Assembly (NCBI RefSeq): GCF_963576615.1
Contig: NW_027045390.1
Coordinates: 248,001 to 312,000 of the forward strand
Length of the DNA stretch: 64,000 nt
From: Watersipora subatra
Taxonomy: Eukaryota > Bryozoa > Gymnolaemata > Cheilostomatida > Watersiporidae
Reading direction: 5' to 3'
Shown one piece after another: positions 5,097 to 57,353 of the stretch (the stretch's first letter is position 1; every line of letters begins with the position of its first letter). Both the position numbers and the translations under genes were made by a program. Under the pieces are notes generated by a model. It was not told the origin of the DNA and ran no database searches. It saw only the letters and a program-made list of their open reading frames with translations.

Positions 5097-5899
5097 CTAA
5101 CAAGTAAAGTAGTATGTGTAATGAGCACATTTTGTAATATGGTTCAGAGACATCATTACAAGCAATATAACAACCAGTTCTTCGAGTTGCGTTGTGATTG
5201 CAAAAGCAATGACCAAATTTGATGCTCAAACCAAAGAGCTATCGCAATATGTAAATGTAACTTGTTTTGTCGTACTATTAACTGATAAAAACTAATGAAA
5301 AAGGACTCAAGAAAAAAACAGCAGGGATTCATTCTATAAGAATATATAACAGGTTAACTGTTTCTTGAATCTATGAGAAGAATTTGAGCCATAATAAAAT
5401 TATTGATATAGGAATAAAAGTGTCATTTCTTCTAGTGAATAACGACAGGTTAAAATATTATCTTGGCTTAAAATAATATTTTATATGAGAGACAAGATAG
5501 GTATGAAAGGGCATGAAAGTCGTACGATGAGGTTTAGAGGTTGTTAGAGGGGCAGCGTTTTAAACATAACATGAACTGCTTCTAGTGAATTATTGAGAAA
5601 ATGTTTCCAGTCGATAGGAGATGAACTCATTGTGGATGCCAAATAAAGGTGAAAGATTATAGATTCTGAATTAACAAAATCAAATGTTGCTGCATAACTG
5701 TAGAAGATAACTTTTTCTGATTTACATGCGCTTACGTAAATTCGAGTATAGCCATCTATGGGAACGGGCAAATAAATGGGAGTTGTTAGCTAAGCCCGCT
5801 GTAACATTAAAAAGGACAAATAAAGCAATGAATAATTACTAAACATACAAACACATACTAAGCACCAAACATACTAAACACTGATGAAATATATTAGGT
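5097..5899. other. Intron, no gene seen
   Basis: Unique arm sequence between exons G and F. An open frame of 75 codons on the minus strand (5,544-5,771) lacks family similarity and is not treated as coding. Confidence 0.5.
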
Positions 5900-6660
5900 A
5901 AATGCTTAGACAGGAAGCAATGCGAGATTACTAAATGCTTAGACAGGAAGCAATGTGAGATTAGTAAATGCTTAGACAGGAAGCAATGCGAGGTTAGTAA
6001 ATGCTTAGACAGGAAGCAATGCGAGATTAGTAAATGCTTAGACAGGAAGCAATGTGAGGTTAGTAAATGCTTAGACAGGAAGCAATGTGAGATTAGTAAA
6101 TGCTTAGACAGGAAGCAATGCGAGGTTAGTAAATGCTTAGACAGAAAGCAATGCGAGATTAGTAAATGCTTAGACAGGAAGCAATGCAAGGTTAGTAAAT
6201 GCTTAGACAGGAAGCAATGCGAGGTTAGTAAATGCTTAGACAGAAAGCAATGCGAGATTACTAAATGCTTAGACAGGAAGCAATGCGAGATTAGTAAATG
6301 CTTAGACAGGAAGCAATGTGAGGTTAGTAAATGCTTAGACAGGAAGCAATGTGAGATTAGTAAATGCTTAGACAGGAAGCAATGCGAGGTTAGTAAATGC
6401 TTAGACAGAAAGCAATGCGAGATTAGTAAATGCTTAGACAGGAAGCAATGCAAGGTTAGTAAATGCTTAGACAGGAAGCAATGCGAGGTTAGTAAATGCT
6501 TAGACAGGAAGCAATGCGAGGTTAGTAAATGCTTAGACAAAAAGCAATGCGAGGTTAGTAAATGCTTAGACAGGAAGCAATGCGAGGTTAGTAAATGCTT
6601 AGACAGGAAGCAATGTGAGGTTAGTAAATGCTTAGACAGGAAGCAATGCAAAGTTAGTAA
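5900..6660. repeat. 33-bp minisatellite, ~23 copies
   Basis: Unit gaggttagtaaatgcttaga plus caggaagcaatgc. It begins just inside the intron after exon F. The right arm has only about nine copies (57,932-58,235). Because 33 is a multiple of 3, it creates a long artefactual ORF. Confidence 0.95.
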
Positions 6661-6719
6661 ATGCTAGCAGTAGTCACTACAAGCCTAAGCAGACGCATAG
6701 CAAAAGCAAATGAACAAAC

Positions 6720-7904: not shown

Positions 7905-7936
<32 letters not shown>

Positions 7937-7942
<6 letters not shown>

Positions 7943-8966
7943 TGTTTCCTCACCCCGGATACCCCGTATGGGTGGTAAATTCTGCTCTAACTCGGGTCTC
8001 CTACCAGAGACCTGGGAGTTTGAGCACTCGTCTCAAGATCTTAGCTGTTCCCAATAGCGCACTTTTCTGCAACTCACCTGAGTTGATTGTTGTTGGTATT
8101 TGGGCAAGCCACATTTTATGCGCCGGTGTTATTGCGCCCAGTGCCCCAATCACTACTGGGATTACGGTTGTTCTTACATTCCAGCATTTTTCAATTTCTT
8201 CTCCAAGAGGGAGATATTTTTCTACCTTTTCTTTTTCTTTGCTGGCTATATTGTAATCATTGGGTACTGCTATATCTATTATAGTAGCCCTCTTGTTCTC
8301 CTTGTCTATCGCCACTATATCTGGTTGGTTTGCTAGGACATGCTTGTCAGTTTGGATGTAGAAGTCCCAGAGGATCTTAGCGCGGTCATTTTCATTGACC
8401 TTACCAGGAGCCTCCCACCAGTGTTGTGGTTTATTAAGGCCATACTCATCACATAGACTTCTATACACAATACCTGCGACATGATTATGCCGCTCAGTGT
8501 ATGCGTTCCCTGCTAGCTGTCTGCATCCACTGATGATGTGTTGGATGGTCTCAGGTGCATCTTTGCACAGTCTGCATCTAGGATCGTCTCTAGTGTGATA
8601 GATTTTCGTTTGGAGTTGCCTTGTTGGGAGCACTTGCTCCTGGGCTGCCATGATTAGCGACTCTGTATTGGCCGTTAGGTTTCCTTTGTTCAGCCACATA
8701 TATGTCTGGTGAAGATCGCCAACCTTAGATATTTGTTGGTGGTAAGCACCATGAAGAGGTTTCGTATGCCAGTCAATTTCCTCATCATCAGGGCATAGGT
8801 CGGTTGTGAGAGCAGCCGATTGAAATTCAGCTAGCAAATTATCTGAGATGGCCATCCTCTTTCACTGTCTGCTGTACACTTTTGAGTCCCCTACCGCCAT
8901 CTTTCCTATCAAGATACAATCTAATAGTATCAGATTTTGGGTGGAGTGCTCCATGCATGGTCAGCA

Positions 8967-8973
<7 letters not shown>
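7937..8973 (-). mobile_element. 5'-truncated RLE-type non-LTR retrotransposon in a (TA)n tract
   Basis: The minus strand encodes the C-terminal part of a LINE polyprotein. A short upstream piece with GALHPKSDTIRLYLDRKDGG is followed by a frameshift near 8,850, then about 284 residues (8,855-8,001). Visible features are a CCHC knuckle CRLCKDAPETIQHIISGC, a PDIVAIDKENKRATIIDIAVP stretch that fits the PD-X12-D core of a restriction-like endonuclease, and a KILRRVLKLPGLW end before TAG. The coding region is followed by about 60 bp of 3' UTR and then TA repeats. RT motifs are absent, so it is a dead 5' truncation. The right arm lacks it. Confidence 0.85.
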
Positions 8974-9000
<27 letters not shown>

Positions 9001-10517: not shown

Positions 10518-10654
10518 CTGCAATAGCATCACCATAGTTGTCGAGATCTCCAAAACCAAGATCATGTGGTGGTGCAATAGTCAACACATTACGAAGATCC
10601 CAAAAAACTCATACGCCAAACAATTATTTCCCATTCAAACTTTTCCCTGACTAA

Positions 10655-11615
10655 CACAGATATAAATATAGTAGTGATGTCTCTCTGTGTAGGATTAACT
10701 AGCACATATAAATATAGTGGTGATATCTCTCTGTGTAGGATTAACTAGCACATATAAATATAGAGGTGATATCTCTTTGTGTAGGATTAACTAACACATA
10801 TAAATATAGTGGTGATATCTCTCTGTGTAGGATTAACTAACACATATAAATATAGTAGTGATATCTGTGTGTAGGATTAACTAACACAGATATAAATATA
10901 GTGGTGATATCTCTGTGTGTAGGATTAACTAACACATATATAAATATAGTGGTGATGTCTCTCTGTGTAGGATTAACTAACACGTATAAATATAGTGGTG
11001 ATATCTCTGTGTAGGATTAACTAACGCATATAAATATAGTGGTGATAACCCTGTGTAGGATTAACTAGCACATATAAATATAGTGGTGATATCTTTCTGT
11101 GTAGGATTAACTAACACTTATAAATATAGTGGTGATATCTCTGTGTAGGATTAACTAACACATATAAATATAGTGGTGATATCTCTGTGTAGGATTAACT
11201 AGCACATATAAATATAGTGGTGATATCTCTCTGTGTAGGATTAACTAACACATATAAATATAGTGGTGATATCTCAGTGTAGGATTAACTAGCACATATA
11301 AATATAGTCATGATATCTCTCTGTGTAGGATTAACTAACACATAAATATAGTGGTGATATCTCTGTGTAGGATTAATTAGCACATATAAATATAGTGGTG
11401 ATATCTCTATGTGTAGGATTAACTAGCACATATAAATATAGTGGTGATATCTGTGTGTAGGATTAACTAACACAGATATAAATATAGTGGTGATATCTCA
11501 GAGTGTAGGATTAACTAACACATATAAATATAGTGGTGATATCTCTCTGTGTAGGATTAACTAACACAGATATAAATATAGCGGTGATTTCTCTCTTTGT
11601 AGGATTAACTAACAC
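10655..11615. repeat. About 44-bp minisatellite, ~22 copies
   Basis: Intron between exons B and C. The array starts a few tens of bases after the exon B donor. Length polymorphic against 1,140-1,605 and 52,655-53,850. Confidence 0.95.
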
Positions 11616-11642
11616 AGCTTTTGTATCGGTCAGCAAGCCTAC

Positions 11643-18520: not shown

Positions 18521-18779
18521 CTGTATGAACAAAATGAAAAAATAATGATTGCTAGCCAACCACAGGGATGATGATGGAATGACAGCCAAGGAAGACATTA
18601 GCCAATCACAGATGTCAGAAACAGACTGTGTTTAATCGAAAATACAAAAACTGAAGAAACTAAACATCCAAACAAAGTAGCATCAGAACTAAAAGTGTTT
18701 TTTTCAAGAAAACAGTGAGTCAATGAGTGACAACTTCATGGCACGTGTAGTTGTAACTATAATTATATGTATTCTCACA

Positions 18780-19562
18780 TGTAATGGCCTGTCAAACACA
18801 CTCACATGTAATGTGAGTGTCAGACAAACTCACATGTATTGGCCTGTCAGACACTCCCACATGTAATGGCCTGTCAGACACCCTCACATGTAATGGCCTG
18901 TCAGACACACTCACATGTAATGGCCTGTCAGACAAACTCACGTGTAATGGCCTGTCAGACACTCCCACGTGAAATGGCCTGTCAGACACTCTCACATGTA
19001 ATGGCCTGTCAGACACACTCACATGTAATGGCCTGTCAGATACACTCACATGTAATGGCCTGTCAGGCACACTCACATGTAAAGGCCTGTCAGGCACACT
19101 CACATGTAATGGCCTGTCAGACACACTCACATGTAATGGCCTGTCAGATACACTCACATGTAATGGCCTGTCAGACACACTCACATGTAATGGCCTGTCA
19201 GACACACTCACATGTAATGGCCTGTCAGACACTCTCACATGTAATGGCCTGTCAGACACACTCACATGTAATGGCCTGTCAGACACTCTCACATGTAATG
19301 GCCTGTCAGACACACTCACATGTAATGGCCTGTCAGACACTCTCACATGTAATGGCCTGTCAGATACTCTCACATGTAATGGCCTGTCAGACACTCTCAC
19401 ATGTAATGGCCTGTCAGATACTCTCACATGTAATGGCCTGTCAGACACTCTCACATGTAATAGCCTGTCAGACACACTACCCTGTAAAGACTTGTCAGAC
19501 ACTCTCAAATGTAATGACCTGTCAGATACTATCACATGTAATGACCTGTCAGGACAACTTAC
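18780..19562. repeat. 24-bp minisatellite, ~32 copies
   Basis: Unit cactcacatgtaatggcctg plus tcag fills the intron up to the exon 2 donor. A 24-bp unit with no stop in several frames yields long ORFs on both strands (for example MACQTHSH or SDRPLHV repeats) that are not genes. Confidence 0.97.
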
Positions 19563-22335
<2,773 letters not shown>

Positions 22336-24458: not shown

Positions 24459-24949
24459 TGTAAGATATGTCAAGCTTTACTCTCAAACATTGCGATAGTA
24501 CCCGTATATGACAGTTAACATTTCATTCGAAGGGTTGTGATCCCTATCTGTGTACAGTGGCTGTAAGAAATACCCTCATTTTATAACGTCAATGCACTGA
24601 CTGCTTGTGTACGCTCTACCATCATGCCGCAAAGCACTCAGTGCCAATGTGAATCTCCTCTGTCTGACCGTTGTAACCTAACAAAATTATAAACATATTA
24701 TTCATTCTTGTCTCCTTAATTTATCTTGTGTTTGGCTCATTTTTCTAGTATGAATCACGTGTTTTGTGCTGTCAAAACTATATAAAAGCATGCAGTTTGA
24801 TTAGATCTAGACTTGTAGTTTTATAATCCTCGTACTTGTTGTCAGTATATTAATAAACGCTCGTAAGACAAGACTCTCTCTCTATCTCTGGCGTACTTTA
24901 GGCTTTAGGAGTCAAAAGCCACCTTAGGGCAGCATAGCGCGCTGTCACA
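24459..24949 (+). repeat. 5' LTR (491 bp)
   Basis: Starts TGTAAGATATG and ends CACA. TATA box tataaa at 24,781-24,786 and poly(A) signal aataaa at 24,852-24,857. By eye it differs from the 3' LTR at only two positions (T/G in ttaat-tatct and in gttt-gtgct). Flanked by TATA. Confidence 0.95.
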
Positions 24950-24951
24950 TT

Positions 24952-24969
24952 TGGTGTCAGAAGTGGGAT
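24952..24969 (+). promoter_or_regulatory. Primer-binding site, tRNA-Leu type
   Basis: tggtgtcagaagtgggat, two bases after the LTR. It is complementary to a 3' end ATCCCACTTCTGACACCA, which is the end of animal tRNA-Leu(CAA). Confidence 0.85.
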
Positions 24970-25013
24970 TCGATAAAATTGATAAAATCCCAAGGACACT
25001 GCCAGAATTTGAG

Positions 25014-27122
25014 ATGACAGAGAGAGAAGGATCACAAAGTGCTCGTGATGAGGATTTGGAGCGATCTGATGCTGAAGAACCAGCAGCTGACGAATTTAGA
25101 GATCAAGTCAACGAAAGATTTGCCGGCGTGGGAGAAGCCATCGATGAACAGAGAGATGCCTTGGCCGGTGTAGCGCAACAGACCGGGAAAATTGAGGAGA
25201 TGATCAAGCTCCTGACGACACAAGTTGCCAAGTTGGCCGATGTTACTGGCAATGCCAAGAAAGACAACGATTCAGAGGTAAGTTTTGATACACCTCAACC
25301 TAGTAAAAGTGATTCAAACTTACGAAGAGAATGGGTTAAATTTGGCCTAAAATTCACAGGTAGGTCACTCGATGACGATTTCGAGAGCTTCGCCATGCAA
25401 TTTGAAACTTGCTGTTTACTGCACGAAGTCCCAAAATCGTCATATGTATTAATCCTACAGCTATACCTTAAAAATCTAGCATCGGCATACCTGAAAGACA
25501 TAATTAAGGCTGAAGGAAGTTCAGTTTCGTACCAGCGAGTAAAAATCCTTATGAAAAATAAATTAAACGCGGTTAAAGGAGAGCAACAAATTGCCATGGA
25601 AGTCTCTGCAGTGAGGCAGGGAGGAAATGAGACAGTCAGAGAGTATTACGAAAAGTTCCACAAAATAATTGCTAGTGGATCTGCAGGGGAAGAGAACCCC
25701 TACGTTCTCTTACATTTTCGAGCGGGTTTGAGGCCCGACATAAAAGACAAAATCATGGGCATACCGGGAAAAACCCTTTCAGAAATACTAAAAGCTGCGG
25801 TTAGTGTCGAAACGGCTTTGGTGGTTGACAAAAAAGTGGCTGATGTATCTGTCAACTTCAGCAATCAAGTCAGACCTAACCCAAGTGTAAACAAACACTT
25901 TGATAAACCAGCAAGAAAATGCTTCATATGCCAATCACCAAATCATATAGCTAGATTCTGTGACAGAAAAACCAGTAATCTTAGATACCAGCAGCCTAGA
26001 CAAGAACACCCTAATAAGATCAGGTTTACTCAGAACCAACCAGGTAAGTCACACCCTAGTCATTTCCCTAGAGATAGACAAGGTAGCAACCAGAGCCAGA
26101 TGCCACAATGGTTTCAGGCTTGGTTGACCAGCCAACGCTCACAGCCACCCATACCCCAACCTCCCACCTATCAGCCCCAGGAAGCCTATGCTTCAACTGC
26201 AGTCACTAAGTCCACACTTGAAACACCCCCTGCCCCCATTGCTTCATCTAAACCCAACCATGTAAGTGACAACAATACAGTTATTTATGACAATATGGCT
26301 GTTGAACATGTACAGGAACATGCGGAGCTCTGCCAGGGACAGGTAGAGGCAGGCAATGTAGAGGTAGCAGAAGTCATACCTGTGGTTCCTGTAATGATCA
26401 CTCCAGTCATAACAGTAGAGTATGCTGAGTTAGAAGTCGCTGTAGTAGAGGTGGTAGAAGCCTATTTACAGGTAAGCGAGGCCCCTTCAAATAGTTGTAA
26501 TGTGGCCAACGAAAACTCTGTAAATAAACAAGAGGTCACTCTAAATAGCCTCCCACCAAAACACAAGGCTTCAGAAACATTGAGTAAGGCCCATGTCAAA
26601 ACTTCCAAGGTAAGTTTGGATAAGATATATGACTTTGTAACCTTTGAAGATGACACTGTTGAGCGCTCTGAGCCAGGAACTAGCACTCCTAAAGTAAAGA
26701 AAGCATCAACAGGTGTCGGTAATGTGAATGAGATCAAGTCATACCACCCAACTAGACCACCTAATTTACATGTATATGCATGCTCTGGTAGTAAACTGAA
26801 CGTGTCACAATCTATGCTCTTCATGCTGACTTTATGTTCTTTGGTAACTCTATGCTATGCACAGGCCCCAATGATATGTCGAACGGGACATACTGTGGCA
26901 AACTTTCAACTACCTCAGTTACCACTTTGTGTGCTGCCAGACACGACAGCAGCAAATGACTCATACAATTGGATGCTACAACATCATAAACCCAACCTTG
27001 TGCAATATAGAAGTTCTTCTTTTCATTGCAAAATTGTGAAAATCAAGACATTGACAATATTTCTGACTCTGACGTTAAGCAGCCTAAACATAGCTACAAT
27101 TTTCGACCTTGAACCTAATTGA
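25014..27122 (+). CDS. Gag-like protein of the LTR retrotransposon, with C-terminal secretory-type segment
   Basis: 702 codons from the ATG in gagatgacagag. The open frame extends upstream into the PBS but has no earlier ATG. Residues ~15-100 are acidic and helical. Residues ~105-290 look like a retrotransposon capsid (FESFAMQFETCC..., VREYYEKFHKI, LHFRAGLRPDIK). A single CCHC zinc knuckle CFICQSPNHIARFC lies near residues 303-316, followed by a Pro/Gln/Ser-rich stretch. Around residue 600 a hydrophobic SMLFMLTLCSLVTLCYAQA looks like a signal peptide, followed by Cys-containing sequence and a second hydrophobic segment at the C-terminus. There is no pol between them. It may have arisen by internal deletion fusing gag to an envelope-like start (inference). 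Confidence 0.88.
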   Translation: MTEREGSQSARDEDLERSDAEEPAADEFRDQVNERFAGVGEAIDEQRDALAGVAQQTGKIEEMIKLLTTQVAKLADVTGNAKKDNDSEVSFDTPQPSKSDSNLRREWVKFGLKFTGRSLDDDFESFAMQFETCCLLHEVPKSSYVLILQLYLKNLASAYLKDIIKAEGSSVSYQRVKILMKNKLNAVKGEQQIAMEVSAVRQGGNETVREYYEKFHKIIASGSAGEENPYVLLHFRAGLRPDIKDKIMGIPGKTLSEILKAAVSVETALVVDKKVADVSVNFSNQVRPNPSVNKHFDKPARKCFICQSPNHIARFCDRKTSNLRYQQPRQEHPNKIRFTQNQPGKSHPSHFPRDRQGSNQSQMPQWFQAWLTSQRSQPPIPQPPTYQPQEAYASTAVTKSTLETPPAPIASSKPNHVSDNNTVIYDNMAVEHVQEHAELCQGQVEAGNVEVAEVIPVVPVMITPVITVEYAELEVAVVEVVEAYLQVSEAPSNSCNVANENSVNKQEVTLNSLPPKHKASETLSKAHVKTSKVSLDKIYDFVTFEDDTVERSEPGTSTPKVKKASTGVGNVNEIKSYHPTRPPNLHVYACSGSKLNVSQSMLFMLTLCSLVTLCYAQAPMICRTGHTVANFQLPQLPLCVLPDTTAANDSYNWMLQHHKPNLVQYRSSSFHCKIVKIKTLTIFLTLTLSSLNIATIFDLEPN

Positions 27123-52622: not shown

Positions 52623-52654
52623 GTAGGCTTGCTGACCGATACAAAAGCTGTGTT

Positions 52655-53850
52655 AGTTAATCCTACAAAGAGAGAAATCACCGCTATATTTATATCTGTG
52701 TTAGTTAATCCTACACAGAGAGATATCACCACTATATTTATATGTGTTAGTTAATCCTACACTCTGAGATATCACCACTATATTTATATCTGTGTTAGTT
52801 AATCCTACACACAGATATCACCACTATTTTTATATGTGCTAGTTAATCCTACACATAGAGATATCACCACTATATTTATATGTGCTAATTAATCCTACAC
52901 AGAGATATCACCACTATATTTATATGTGTTAGTTAATCCTACACAGAGAGATATCATGACTATATTTATATGTGCTAGTTAATCCTACACTGAGATATCA
53001 CCACTATATTTATATGTGTTAGTTAATCCTACACAGAGAGATATCACCACTATATTTATATGTGCTAGTTAATCCTACACAGAGATATCACCACTATATT
53101 TATATGTGTTAGTTAATCCTACACAGAGATATCACCACTATATTTATAAGTGTTAGTTAATCCTACACAGAAAGATATCACCACTATATTTATATGTGCT
53201 AGTTAATCCTACACAGGGTTATCACCACTATATTTATATGCGTTGGTTAATCCTACACAGAGATATCACCACTATATTTATACGTGTTAGTTAATCCTAC
53301 ACAGAGAGACATCACCACTATATTTATATATGTGTTAGTTAATCCTACACACAGAGATATCACCACTATATTTATATCTGTGTTAGTTAATCCTACACAC
53401 AGATATCACTACTATATTTATATGTGTTAGTTAATCCTACACAGAGAGATATCACCACTATATTTATATGTGTTAGTTAATCCTACACAAAGAGATAGCA
53501 CCACTATATTTATATGTGCTAGTTAATCCTACACAGAGAGATATCACCACTATATTTATATATGTGCTAGGTAATCCTACACAGAGAGATATCACCACTA
53601 TATTTATATGTGCTAGTTAATCCTACACAGAGAGATATCACCACTATATTTATATGTGCTAGTTAATCCTACACAGAGATATCACCACTATATTTATATG
53701 TGTTAGTTAATCCTACACAGAGAGATATCACCACTATATTTATATGTGCTAGTTAATCCTACACAAAGAGATATCACCACTATATTTATTTATGTCTTAC
53801 TTAATCCTACACAGAGAGACATCACTACTATATTTATATCTGTGTTAGTC
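52655..53850. repeat. About 44-bp minisatellite, ~27 copies
   Basis: Largest of three copies of this array. Fills the intron between exons B and C. Confidence 0.95.
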
Positions 53851-55493: not shown

Positions 55494-55580
<87 letters not shown>

Positions 55581-55724
55581 ATATATATATATATATATAT
55601 ATCCTATATATATATAGCAGGAAGTATATATATATATATATATATATATATACTTCCTGCTATATATATATATATATAGCAGGAAGTCAACTCTCATTGG
55701 TAATGGGATTTGTGTCCCTTGCCT

Positions 55725-55785
55725 AAGCTCTGAGCTGCACTGATGAGGCTTCAATAGCCGAAACAGTACTGTCTGTAGCATGAGT
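55725..55785 (+). ncRNA. Hammerhead ribozyme 1
   Basis: Core CTGATGA (55,740-55,746), stem II ggct/agcc with a tcaat loop, GAAA, tiny stem III (acag/ctgt around ta), then GTC with predicted cleavage after 55,773. Stem I gctgca/tgtagc extended by ctc/gag across an internal loop. All invariant core positions are present. Type I, short stem III. Confidence 0.85.
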
Positions 55786-55983
55786 ATATGCTCCCTTACT
55801 TCGGTTTGGTTGAGCACTCTGTGAGAGGTGCGGCACTATTAGCCTTTGTGCAAAGCTCATCACTTTTGTGATTTGAGCACTCTGGTGCCAGCACATTGAC
55901 TTTCTTAAAGTCTGCGAGGCAACTTAGTTGTTTTGTAGCAGGAAGTCAACTCTCATTGGTAATGGGATTTGTGTCCCTTGCCT

Positions 55984-56044
55984 AAGCTCTGAGCTGCACT
56001 GATGAGGCTTCAATAGCCGAAACAGTACTGTCTGTAGCATGAGT
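55984..56044 (+). ncRNA. Hammerhead ribozyme 2
   Basis: Same core and stems, 259 bp downstream; predicted cleavage after 56,032. Confidence 0.85.
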
Positions 56045-56242
56045 ATATGCTCCCTTACTTCGGTTTGGTTGAGCACTCTGTGAGAGGTGCGGCACTATTA
56101 GCCTTTGTGCAAAGCTCATCACTTTTGTGATTTGAGCACTCTGGTGCCAGCACATTGACTTTCTTAAAGTCTGCGAGGCAACTTAGTTGTTTCGTAGCAG
56201 GAAGTCAACTCTCATTGATAATGGGATTTGTGTCCCTTGCCT

Positions 56243-56303
56243 AAGCTCTGAGCTGCACTGATGAGGCTTCAATAGCCGAAACAGTACTGTCTGTAGCATG
56301 AGT
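56243..56303 (+). ncRNA. Hammerhead ribozyme 3
   Basis: Same core and stems; predicted cleavage after 56,291. Confidence 0.85.
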
Positions 56304-56501
56304 ATATGCTCCCTTACTTCGGTTTGGTTGAGCACTCTGTGAGAGGTGCGGCACTATTAGCCTTTGTGCAAAGCTCATCACTTTTGTGATTTGAGCACTC
56401 TGGTGCCAGCACATTGACTTTCTTAAAGTCTGCGAGGCAACTTAGTTGTTTCGTAGCAGGAAGTCAACTCTCATTGGTAATGGGATTTGTGTCCCTTGCC
56501 T

Positions 56502-56560
56502 AAGCTCTGAGCTGCACTGATGAGGCTTCAATAGCCGAAACAGTACTGTCTGTAGCATGA

Positions 56561-56562
<2 letters not shown>
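56502..56562 (+). ncRNA. Hammerhead ribozyme 4
   Basis: Complete core and stem I up to tgtagcatgag, immediately followed by TA repeats; predicted cleavage after 56,550. Confidence 0.85.
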
Positions 56563-56632
<70 letters not shown>

Positions 56633-56648
56633 ATATATATCCCATATC

Positions 56649-56682
<34 letters not shown>

Positions 56683-57353
56683 GATATGGGTAAACCATAG
56701 TTTATCATTGCACTAATGTTTGTACAGCTATTTACACTTGTGTTTTCTTAAGAAAAAGATCCATCAACTTATAATCTAAAATCGTCCAACTACAACTTGA
56801 AGTCAGGCTAATGAATTGTATCAAACTGCAAGTAAAACTTAGGTCTTTAAAATATTTAATCTAACATATCCTGAAATGTTATGCAAGCAGTTCCAATTTA
56901 CACCAGTGTTCATCACATATCTTTTACAGCAAGTAATAGCCTTTTTCATATATAAATACTTGTTGGTCATCGTTGTCACTAGTTCAAAGCAACTTTCAAA
57001 TAAAATCGGTTTACTGTGAAAATGAACAAATTGGTGTCATGATTATGTTAATCAGGGATCAACACTTTTAACCAATCACAAATACATCAGTTTCTTCTAT
57101 TACTACACAGCCATCAGGGGTGTGTGGTGTTTTTGCAAATAATAATTTTGCCAGCGTAAATAGCCAATGCCTTATTCCTTGTGTTTCTCTGATGTTTTCT
57201 GTTCTGTTGAACAGAAAACTCTCTACAGACTCTTATTTGATAATTGCTGGCATAGTCATTACATTGCATAGAGTAATCAGTAATGTCACGGTTACACTAT
57301 ATTGCGCTGCAATTTTGTTGATGATATGTTCAACTCATCTTCATAGCTGCTAA

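Follow-up and report, generated by a model that had tools for sequence, protein, structure and literature searches.

What kind of element is the 259-bp tandem repeat that sits in a (TA)n tract of this Watersipora subatra DNA, and which enzyme has been moving it? An original prediction, made from the letters of the window alone (the window being the whole stretch of 64,000 nucleotides analyzed), had read the repeat as retrozyme-like units that each carry a hammerhead ribozyme. In the cited parts of the literature, the enzyme that moves animal retrozymes is left open, with Penelope-like elements (PLEs) as a favored but unproven guess (PMC7229834, PMC7761336), and the 2020 review (PMC7761336) states that metazoan units lack a conserved motif from which the partner might be deduced.

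TRF run on the window recovered a period of 259, with 3.4 copies and 99% matches at 55677-56566, embedded in a (TA)n tract (Table 1). The spacing predicted for the four hammerhead cores proved exact: CTGATGA-13nt-GAAA occurs at 55740, 55999, 56258 and 56517. The chance expectation for this pattern is 0.07 per window, and four cores were reached in 0/100 shuffles. The core reads CTGATGA GGCTTCAATAGCC GAAA, with one type I hammerhead per full unit. The paired stems are also as predicted, down to a tiny stem III; stem I has 6 bp (GCTGCA/TGTAGC, with an internal loop and an outer helix), stem II has 4 bp, and stem III has at most 3 bp (CAG-TA-CTG; the alternative is two pairs closed by a tetraloop).

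Table 1. Features of the array and of the matching site on the other palindrome arm, in window coordinates. Phase is the position within the unit, phase 1 being 55678 in unit 1 and 55937 in unit 2.
Feature	Position	Strand	Basis or remark
Retrozyme array	55677..56566	+	3.44 units x 259 bp (TRF); 3' end = phase 112
(TA)n target tract, 5' side	55499..55676	.	TRF + sequence
(TA)n target tract, 3' side	56567..56679	.	TRF
Hammerhead, unit 1	55728..55785	+	core 55740-55763; predicted cut after 55773; pattern + HH9
Hammerhead, unit 2	55987..56044	+	predicted cut after 56032; pattern + HH9
Hammerhead, unit 3	56246..56303	+	predicted cut after 56291; pattern + HH9
Hammerhead, unit 4	56505..56562	+	predicted cut after 56550; pattern + HH9
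TATAT, proposed priming site	56044..56048	+	unique in unit; also 55785-55789, 56303-56307
TATAT at array end	56562-56566	+	3' junction of array
PLE-like start hairpin 1, TGCTC...GAGCA then CTCT	56048..56075	+	also 55789-55816, 56307-56334
Second hairpin, GCTC...GAGC then ACTCTG	56114..56137	+	directly 3' of 5'-end hot spot; also 55855-55878, 56373-56396
5'-truncated R2/R4-like LINE in place of retrozyme	7935..8990	-	other palindrome arm, same TA tract; ORF 8001-8861

A covariance-model check, proposed along with the original prediction, came out negative at the Rfam gathering cut-off, where the whole window gave no match, and positive below it. There, Hammerhead_HH9 (RF02275) matched over its full length at 4/4 cores, with 21.7-23.5 bits against a cut-off of 52. 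E-values were 0.0037-0.015 across the four cores and 0.0013 for one core in a separate run. The HH9-like features are the internal loop in stem I and loop II, at a score far below the gathering cut-off. Because the isolated 79-nt region, folded for minimum energy, lacked the hammerhead and did no better than shuffles (z -0.54), the ribozyme assignment rests on the core and the stems.

The 259-bp unit has a GC content of 46.7%, under the 50% used as a retrozyme criterion, and no ORF of at least 200 aa overlaps the array. As a circle, the unit is predicted to fold at -92.3 kcal/mol, compared with -66.7 ± 5.1 for mononucleotide shuffles, 0/200 of which are predicted to fold as low. A tRNA search of the whole window found none. 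In the cited sections of Cervera & de la Pena 2020 (PMC7229834), metazoan non-LTR retrozymes are tandem units of 170-400 nt with a type I hammerhead, low GC, no LTR and strong self-pairing, dispersed as dimers to multimers. Our units are alike in being small, tandem, dispersed as multimers, low in GC and predicted to self-pair around a type I hammerhead; they differ in their fixed 3' junction, their (TA)n target and a start signal that they have in common with resident PLEs. Plant LTR retrozymes, as far as the cited part of PMC4918200 describes them, are likewise hammerhead repeats spreading as circles, but with type III hammerheads, LTRs and a Gypsy-type partner (as told in PMC7229834). Together with the dispersed copies and the one-circle signature described below, the type I hammerheads, GC content, lack of such an ORF and predicted self-pairing bear out the retrozyme reading of the original prediction, and we consider the array well supported as a metazoan non-LTR retrozyme.

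A search of the 783.7-Mb assembly, in which 40 of 1294 candidate regions were scored, gave at least 171 matches. The matches listed were merged by eye into 40 clusters; 38 of these were retrieved (L001-L050), and the other two lie on C1. The search revealed the dispersed multicopy arrays that the original prediction had suggested looking for, many of their units at 98-100% identity, in line with the recent activity it had claimed. We analyzed 43 arrays of at least 100 bp, leaving out L034 (a duplicate of L033) and shorter arrays and counting both copies of the duplicated locus L004/L005. Their lengths were 141-2854 bp, and by length 37/43 hold at least two complete hammerheads.

The 3' ends of these arrays follow one rule. 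In 40/43, the end falls at phases 110-113, in (TA)n, 16 nt beyond the predicted cut, and the next 10 bases are A or T only in 32 of those 40. These 40 arrays end in TA repeats and not in coding sequence, which speaks against their being parts of a coding Penelope element, the refuting case named with the original prediction. UAUAU, which occurs once per unit (phases 108-112), lies precisely at the 3' junction. Copying from that site on a cut linear monomer would have yielded no more than 16 nt, so the template was a ring or an uncut multimer. On the 5' side, at least (TA)5 is present within 40 nt in 40/43 arrays; both flanks are (TA)n, which masks any target-site duplication (in metazoan retrozymes such duplications, when present, are longer than 4 bp). 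The three exceptions to the 3'-end rule are L004, L005 and a short piece in L044. L004 and L005, which are one duplicated insert, begin right at the predicted cut of the hammerhead (phase 97) and end at phase 179 in A8; a different enzyme may here have moved an RNA that had been cut and tailed. The genome search also suggested a 3' end at phase 50, which was a BLAST split and no real end.

The 5' ends vary, with a hot spot at phases 163-178 that holds 15 of the 42 inserts left when L004 is set aside (binomial p 1.4e-8, for an interval chosen after the ends had been seen). It lies directly 5' of a second hairpin copy, GCTCATC...TTGAGCACTCTG, which may stop copying there, offer another binding site or cause a pause by its structure. 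Some loci have a more complex layout. In L050 and L026, a sense piece faces inverted pieces head to head, and the outer end on either side is at phase 112 and adjoins TA; it looks as if both DNA ends had acted as primers, and two separate insertions would give the same picture. At L042 (3926-3958), an 11-unit array and an inverted piece stand tail to tail, at phase 112 versus 113, with 31 nt of mostly TA between them.

Comparison of units within arrays bears on the template. We used 38 arrays of at least 300 bp, leaving out L004, L034 and the first 5 bases of each array. Among 153 variable array positions, 25 were fixed across all units of their array, compared with 2.3 on average and never more than 7 when letters were shuffled among units (500 runs). 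Examples are variants found in 4/4 units in L045, L040 and L043 and in 11/11 in L042. One recurrent CpG change (phase 257) accounts for seven of the 25, which are hence not private to an array. Non-CpG array-fixed variants fell in the hammerhead (phases 54-103) in 0/17 cases, compared with 18/108 for other non-CpG variants; this region makes up 0.193 of the unit, so that about 19% would be expected without selection. Among the eight CpG founder changes, however, one (at phase 83, in L047) falls in the hammerhead GAAA. The contrast is modest, but it fits the copying of working ribozymes. Judged by these variants, each array looks as if a single circle had served as its template over and over. 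A circular template, being endless, would give a simple reason both for tandem arrays and for arrays that end with an intact ribozyme.

The same results bear on whether the unit is a satellite that spread as DNA, with arrays made by unequal exchange and dispersal by recombination between TA tracts. A 3' end that is fixed while 5' ends vary, a polarity tied to the hammerhead and a hammerhead spared by non-CpG founder variants all argue against this, and we regard it as very improbable, having counted in its favor that TA tracts are recombinogenic, that some 5' ends carry foldbacks, that the arrays are homogeneous and that the window lies in a large palindrome. Unequal exchange could still be a partial contributor to the uniformity of arrays otherwise copied from rings.

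A GIY-YIG search with PF01541 found one gene only, which we take to be SLX1-like, and we treated the absence of PLEs by that search as a false negative. A hand-typed motif probe for PLEs gave a weak best match (E 0.02), and its matches were tandem elements of 2400 bp (PLE1) and 2455 bp (PLE2), with ORFs of 756 aa and 728 aa. The two proteins are 56% identical. Read by eye, both contain the RT-like motifs YRDDG and FLDV and a GIY-YIG-like C-terminus, IIYQA...YIGLC...FKSRFRNH. Searches of these proteins against Pfam, NCBIfam and PDB gave nothing convincing, and the LINE RT profile did not match them. Their identification as Penelope-like elements is thus by motif, taking the eye-read motifs together with the tandem units, the hammerheads and the weak probe match. 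A wider search, with 59 of 5737 candidates scored, added more PLE copies, including a 709-aa family.

These families resemble the retrozyme in how they end. Type I hammerhead cores with a stem I of 4-8 bp lie upstream of the ends in PLE1, PLE2, PLE3 and PLE4; the PLE5 core did not pass the structural scan. All 20 of the PLE1 and PLE2 ends read (L075-L094) lie in (TA)n-type sequence, each at either of the two internal sites that its family uses. Of 12 ends from further PLE copies, 11 are in (TA)n (the exception is L106), and among them an internal site is evident for PLE3 site A alone, past which other copies continue. Three PLE families therefore have fixed internal end sites in (TA)n beyond the hammerhead, and an internal start 3' of the hammerhead (a 'tail') is the junction rule common to the retrozyme, PLE1, PLE2 and PLE3 site A. 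A comparable case is PAc, an Anolis PLE, in which, according to the cited part of PMC11167929, reverse transcription begins inside the element, at two sites beyond the hammerhead, in the 'tail'. Both PAc (PMC11167929) and our element have a type I hammerhead, tandem units, an AT-rich target and an internal start 3' of the hammerhead, whereas the retrozyme has no long ORF. The PAc start site is reported there not to match the cut DNA (PMC11167929), whereas UAUA here matches (TA)n.

We then compared the start sites themselves. The retrozyme site reads AGTATA-TGCTCC-(13 nt)-GTTGAGCACTCT. PLE2 has AGTATATAGCTGCTCC-AATATATTT-GTTGAGCACTCT at site A and TTTATACAGCTCC-...-GTTGAGCACTTT at site B, PLE1 has ATTATACTTGCTCC-GTTTACC-GTTGAGCGCTTT at site B, and PLE4 has TTATATCAGCTCTG-...-ATTGAGCACTCT, a site that was picked by similarity, since the one PLE4 end read lies beyond it. 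When the whole unit was aligned with the whole PLE2 unit (a run made without shuffle control), the top local alignment was the start site, AGTATA..TGCTCC..GTTGAGCACTCT. The control for the 80-nt start region was a set of 2000 dinucleotide shuffles, of which 2 scored as high against the PLE2 tail and 57 as high against the PLE4 tail (TTGAGCACTCT). Matches to the other PLEs were no better than shuffles (PLE1, 1033/2000; PLE3, 706/2000; PLE5, 459/2000).

An RCUC...GAGY hairpin follows the junction at 6/6 observed sites (retrozyme, PLE1 A and B, PLE2 A and B, PLE3 A) and also at the similarity-picked PLE4 site. Its chance is 0.2-1.7% per site, under a rule framed after the sites had been seen; the rule is passed by 22/259 start points in the retrozyme and by 33/2400 in PLE1. 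In PLE1 site A and PLE3 site A, a hairpin G-C is changed to A-U. By these comparisons, the start-site sequence is common to the retrozyme and two PLE families, and elsewhere the hairpin alone is. The retrozyme and the resident PLE-like families thus share their target, junction rule and hammerhead position, and with two of the families the retrozyme also shares a short start-site sequence, so that the guess of a PLE partner becomes directly testable. Our confidence in that partner is tempered because the start-sequence match is above chance in two PLE families and not in all.

A unit that carries both PLE blocks, the hammerhead and the start hairpin, might instead have arisen simply by deletion from an unsampled PLE, as a pseudo-LTR that moves by ordinary PLE transposition without a circle. 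Arrays templated by uncut multimer RNA are also possible, which suits such an origin. Yet whole-unit alignments with the PLE1 and PLE2 units gave short blocks only, and both the one-circle signature and the HH9-like stem I with its internal loop speak against it; we think this derivation improbable. The retrozyme unit is no PLE, having no long ORF for RT and GIY-YIG, but it may work like one.

Our preferred reading is a non-autonomous retrozyme of the metazoan type, and self-cut circles copied by a resident Penelope-like protein from UAUAU at (TA)n are its probable mode of spread. Transcripts of an array would be cleaved by their own hammerheads into 259-nt units, which would then close into circles. 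The protein would bind the hairpin UGCUC...UUGAGCACUCU on the circle and nick a (TA)n microsatellite. The freed TA end could then pair with the single UAUAU just 5' of the hairpin and prime reverse transcription, and the enzyme would go round the ring, in many cases between 1.5 and 5 times, so that units are left head to tail with a whole hammerhead at the end of the array. From the sequence evidence at hand, the case for (TA)n-primed copying of a ring appears good, and that for a PLE partner specific yet incomplete; cleavage, circularization and the action of the PLE enzyme are steps that we infer. We also suggest tentatively, at somewhat less than even chances, that circular ribozyme RNAs use the hairpin 3' of UAUA as a docking signal to recruit Penelope enzymes, one of its two copies in the retrozyme setting where copying starts and the other lying at the hot spot where it ends. 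If so, ring-template, TA-primed retrotransposition would have a cis-code that can be transferred.

A LINE was our first hypothesis for the partner and was demoted once the PLE ends had been read. It was suggested by the other arm of the palindrome, where an R2/R4-like LINE occupies the same TA tract (Table 1); a copy of the locus on C2 (L053) likewise has the LINE at that tract. The circular RNA element would then be the same, with the restriction-like endonuclease of the LINE cutting (TA)n and the TA end priming reverse transcription on the circle. We take this LINE to be Rex6/R4. Its RT has R2 as its nearest relative among PDB structures (E 7e-31) and is 61-63% identical to fish RT proteins. 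The LINE is very young and abundant (136 scored copies at 97-100% among 9066 candidates, many with an open 1123-aa frame), and three full-length copies both start and end in (TA)n. In our count of one locus per cluster (L004 and L034 left out), LINE pieces flank 14/36 retrozyme clusters and PLE pieces flank 5/36, a proximity that the shared target alone suffices to explain. Unlike the retrozyme, the LINE is protein-coding and has a fixed 3' terminus, GAAACAATTTT.. followed by (TA)n, with no internal start. No 12-mer is common to the retrozyme and a full-length LINE copy (3465 nt, both strands), the LINE 3' end matches the retrozyme start region no better than shuffles (1003/2000), and no hammerhead core in LINE loci L064-L066 passed the structural scan. 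Rfam gave nothing at gathering on the full-length LINE loci. We therefore consider a LINE partner unlikely, although less so than a PLE derivative. Restriction-like-endonuclease LINEs (R2/R4/HERO), as treated in the cited part of PMC4640811, are alike in microsatellite targeting, and the resident LINE inserts in (TA)n.

Two features of the LINE sequence were noted separately. Its ORF (e.g., in L064) contains the reverse complement of a retrozyme 11-mer, TTTGAGCACTC, which is wrongly oriented for a common signal and is probably there by chance. Directly after (TA)n, full-length copies (L064, about 1680-1740; L101) begin with a tRNA-like stretch, TAGCGCAGTTGG ... GGTTCAAACCC, presumably box A/B; ARAGORN called no tRNA on L064. 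L100 and L101 hold nested mixtures in TA tracts, with a PLE3 end, inverted PLE2 tails and a LINE 5' end within 700 bp.

The window is largely palindromic, with arm pairs of 1260 to 5309 nt at 98-100% and a mirror center at about 32569; the lowest of the 25 arm pairs listed (91-93%) are minisatellites. The small contig is perhaps a haplotype or an assembly fold-back. Beside the array, the 5'-side TA tract contains an inverted piece of the array's 5' end, and a hairpin, TAGCAGGAAGT...ACTTCCTGCTA, spans the tract at 55614-55664. A second hairpin, CCCATATCTAC...GTAGATATGGG, spans TA at 56640-56690 and is an inverted copy of flanking DNA that is absent from the other arm. Matches of the TA hairpins to miRNA families were dismissed as low-complexity chance. 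Between the arms, 24909-27122 is an open frame of 737 aa with a retrotransposon gag domain (PF03732) and a sub-threshold zinc knuckle. TRF also reported many minisatellites of 19-94 bp (1134-1607, 10650-11616, 52649-53849, 5898-6665, 18774-19568 and others), several of them mirrored between the arms with differing copy numbers.
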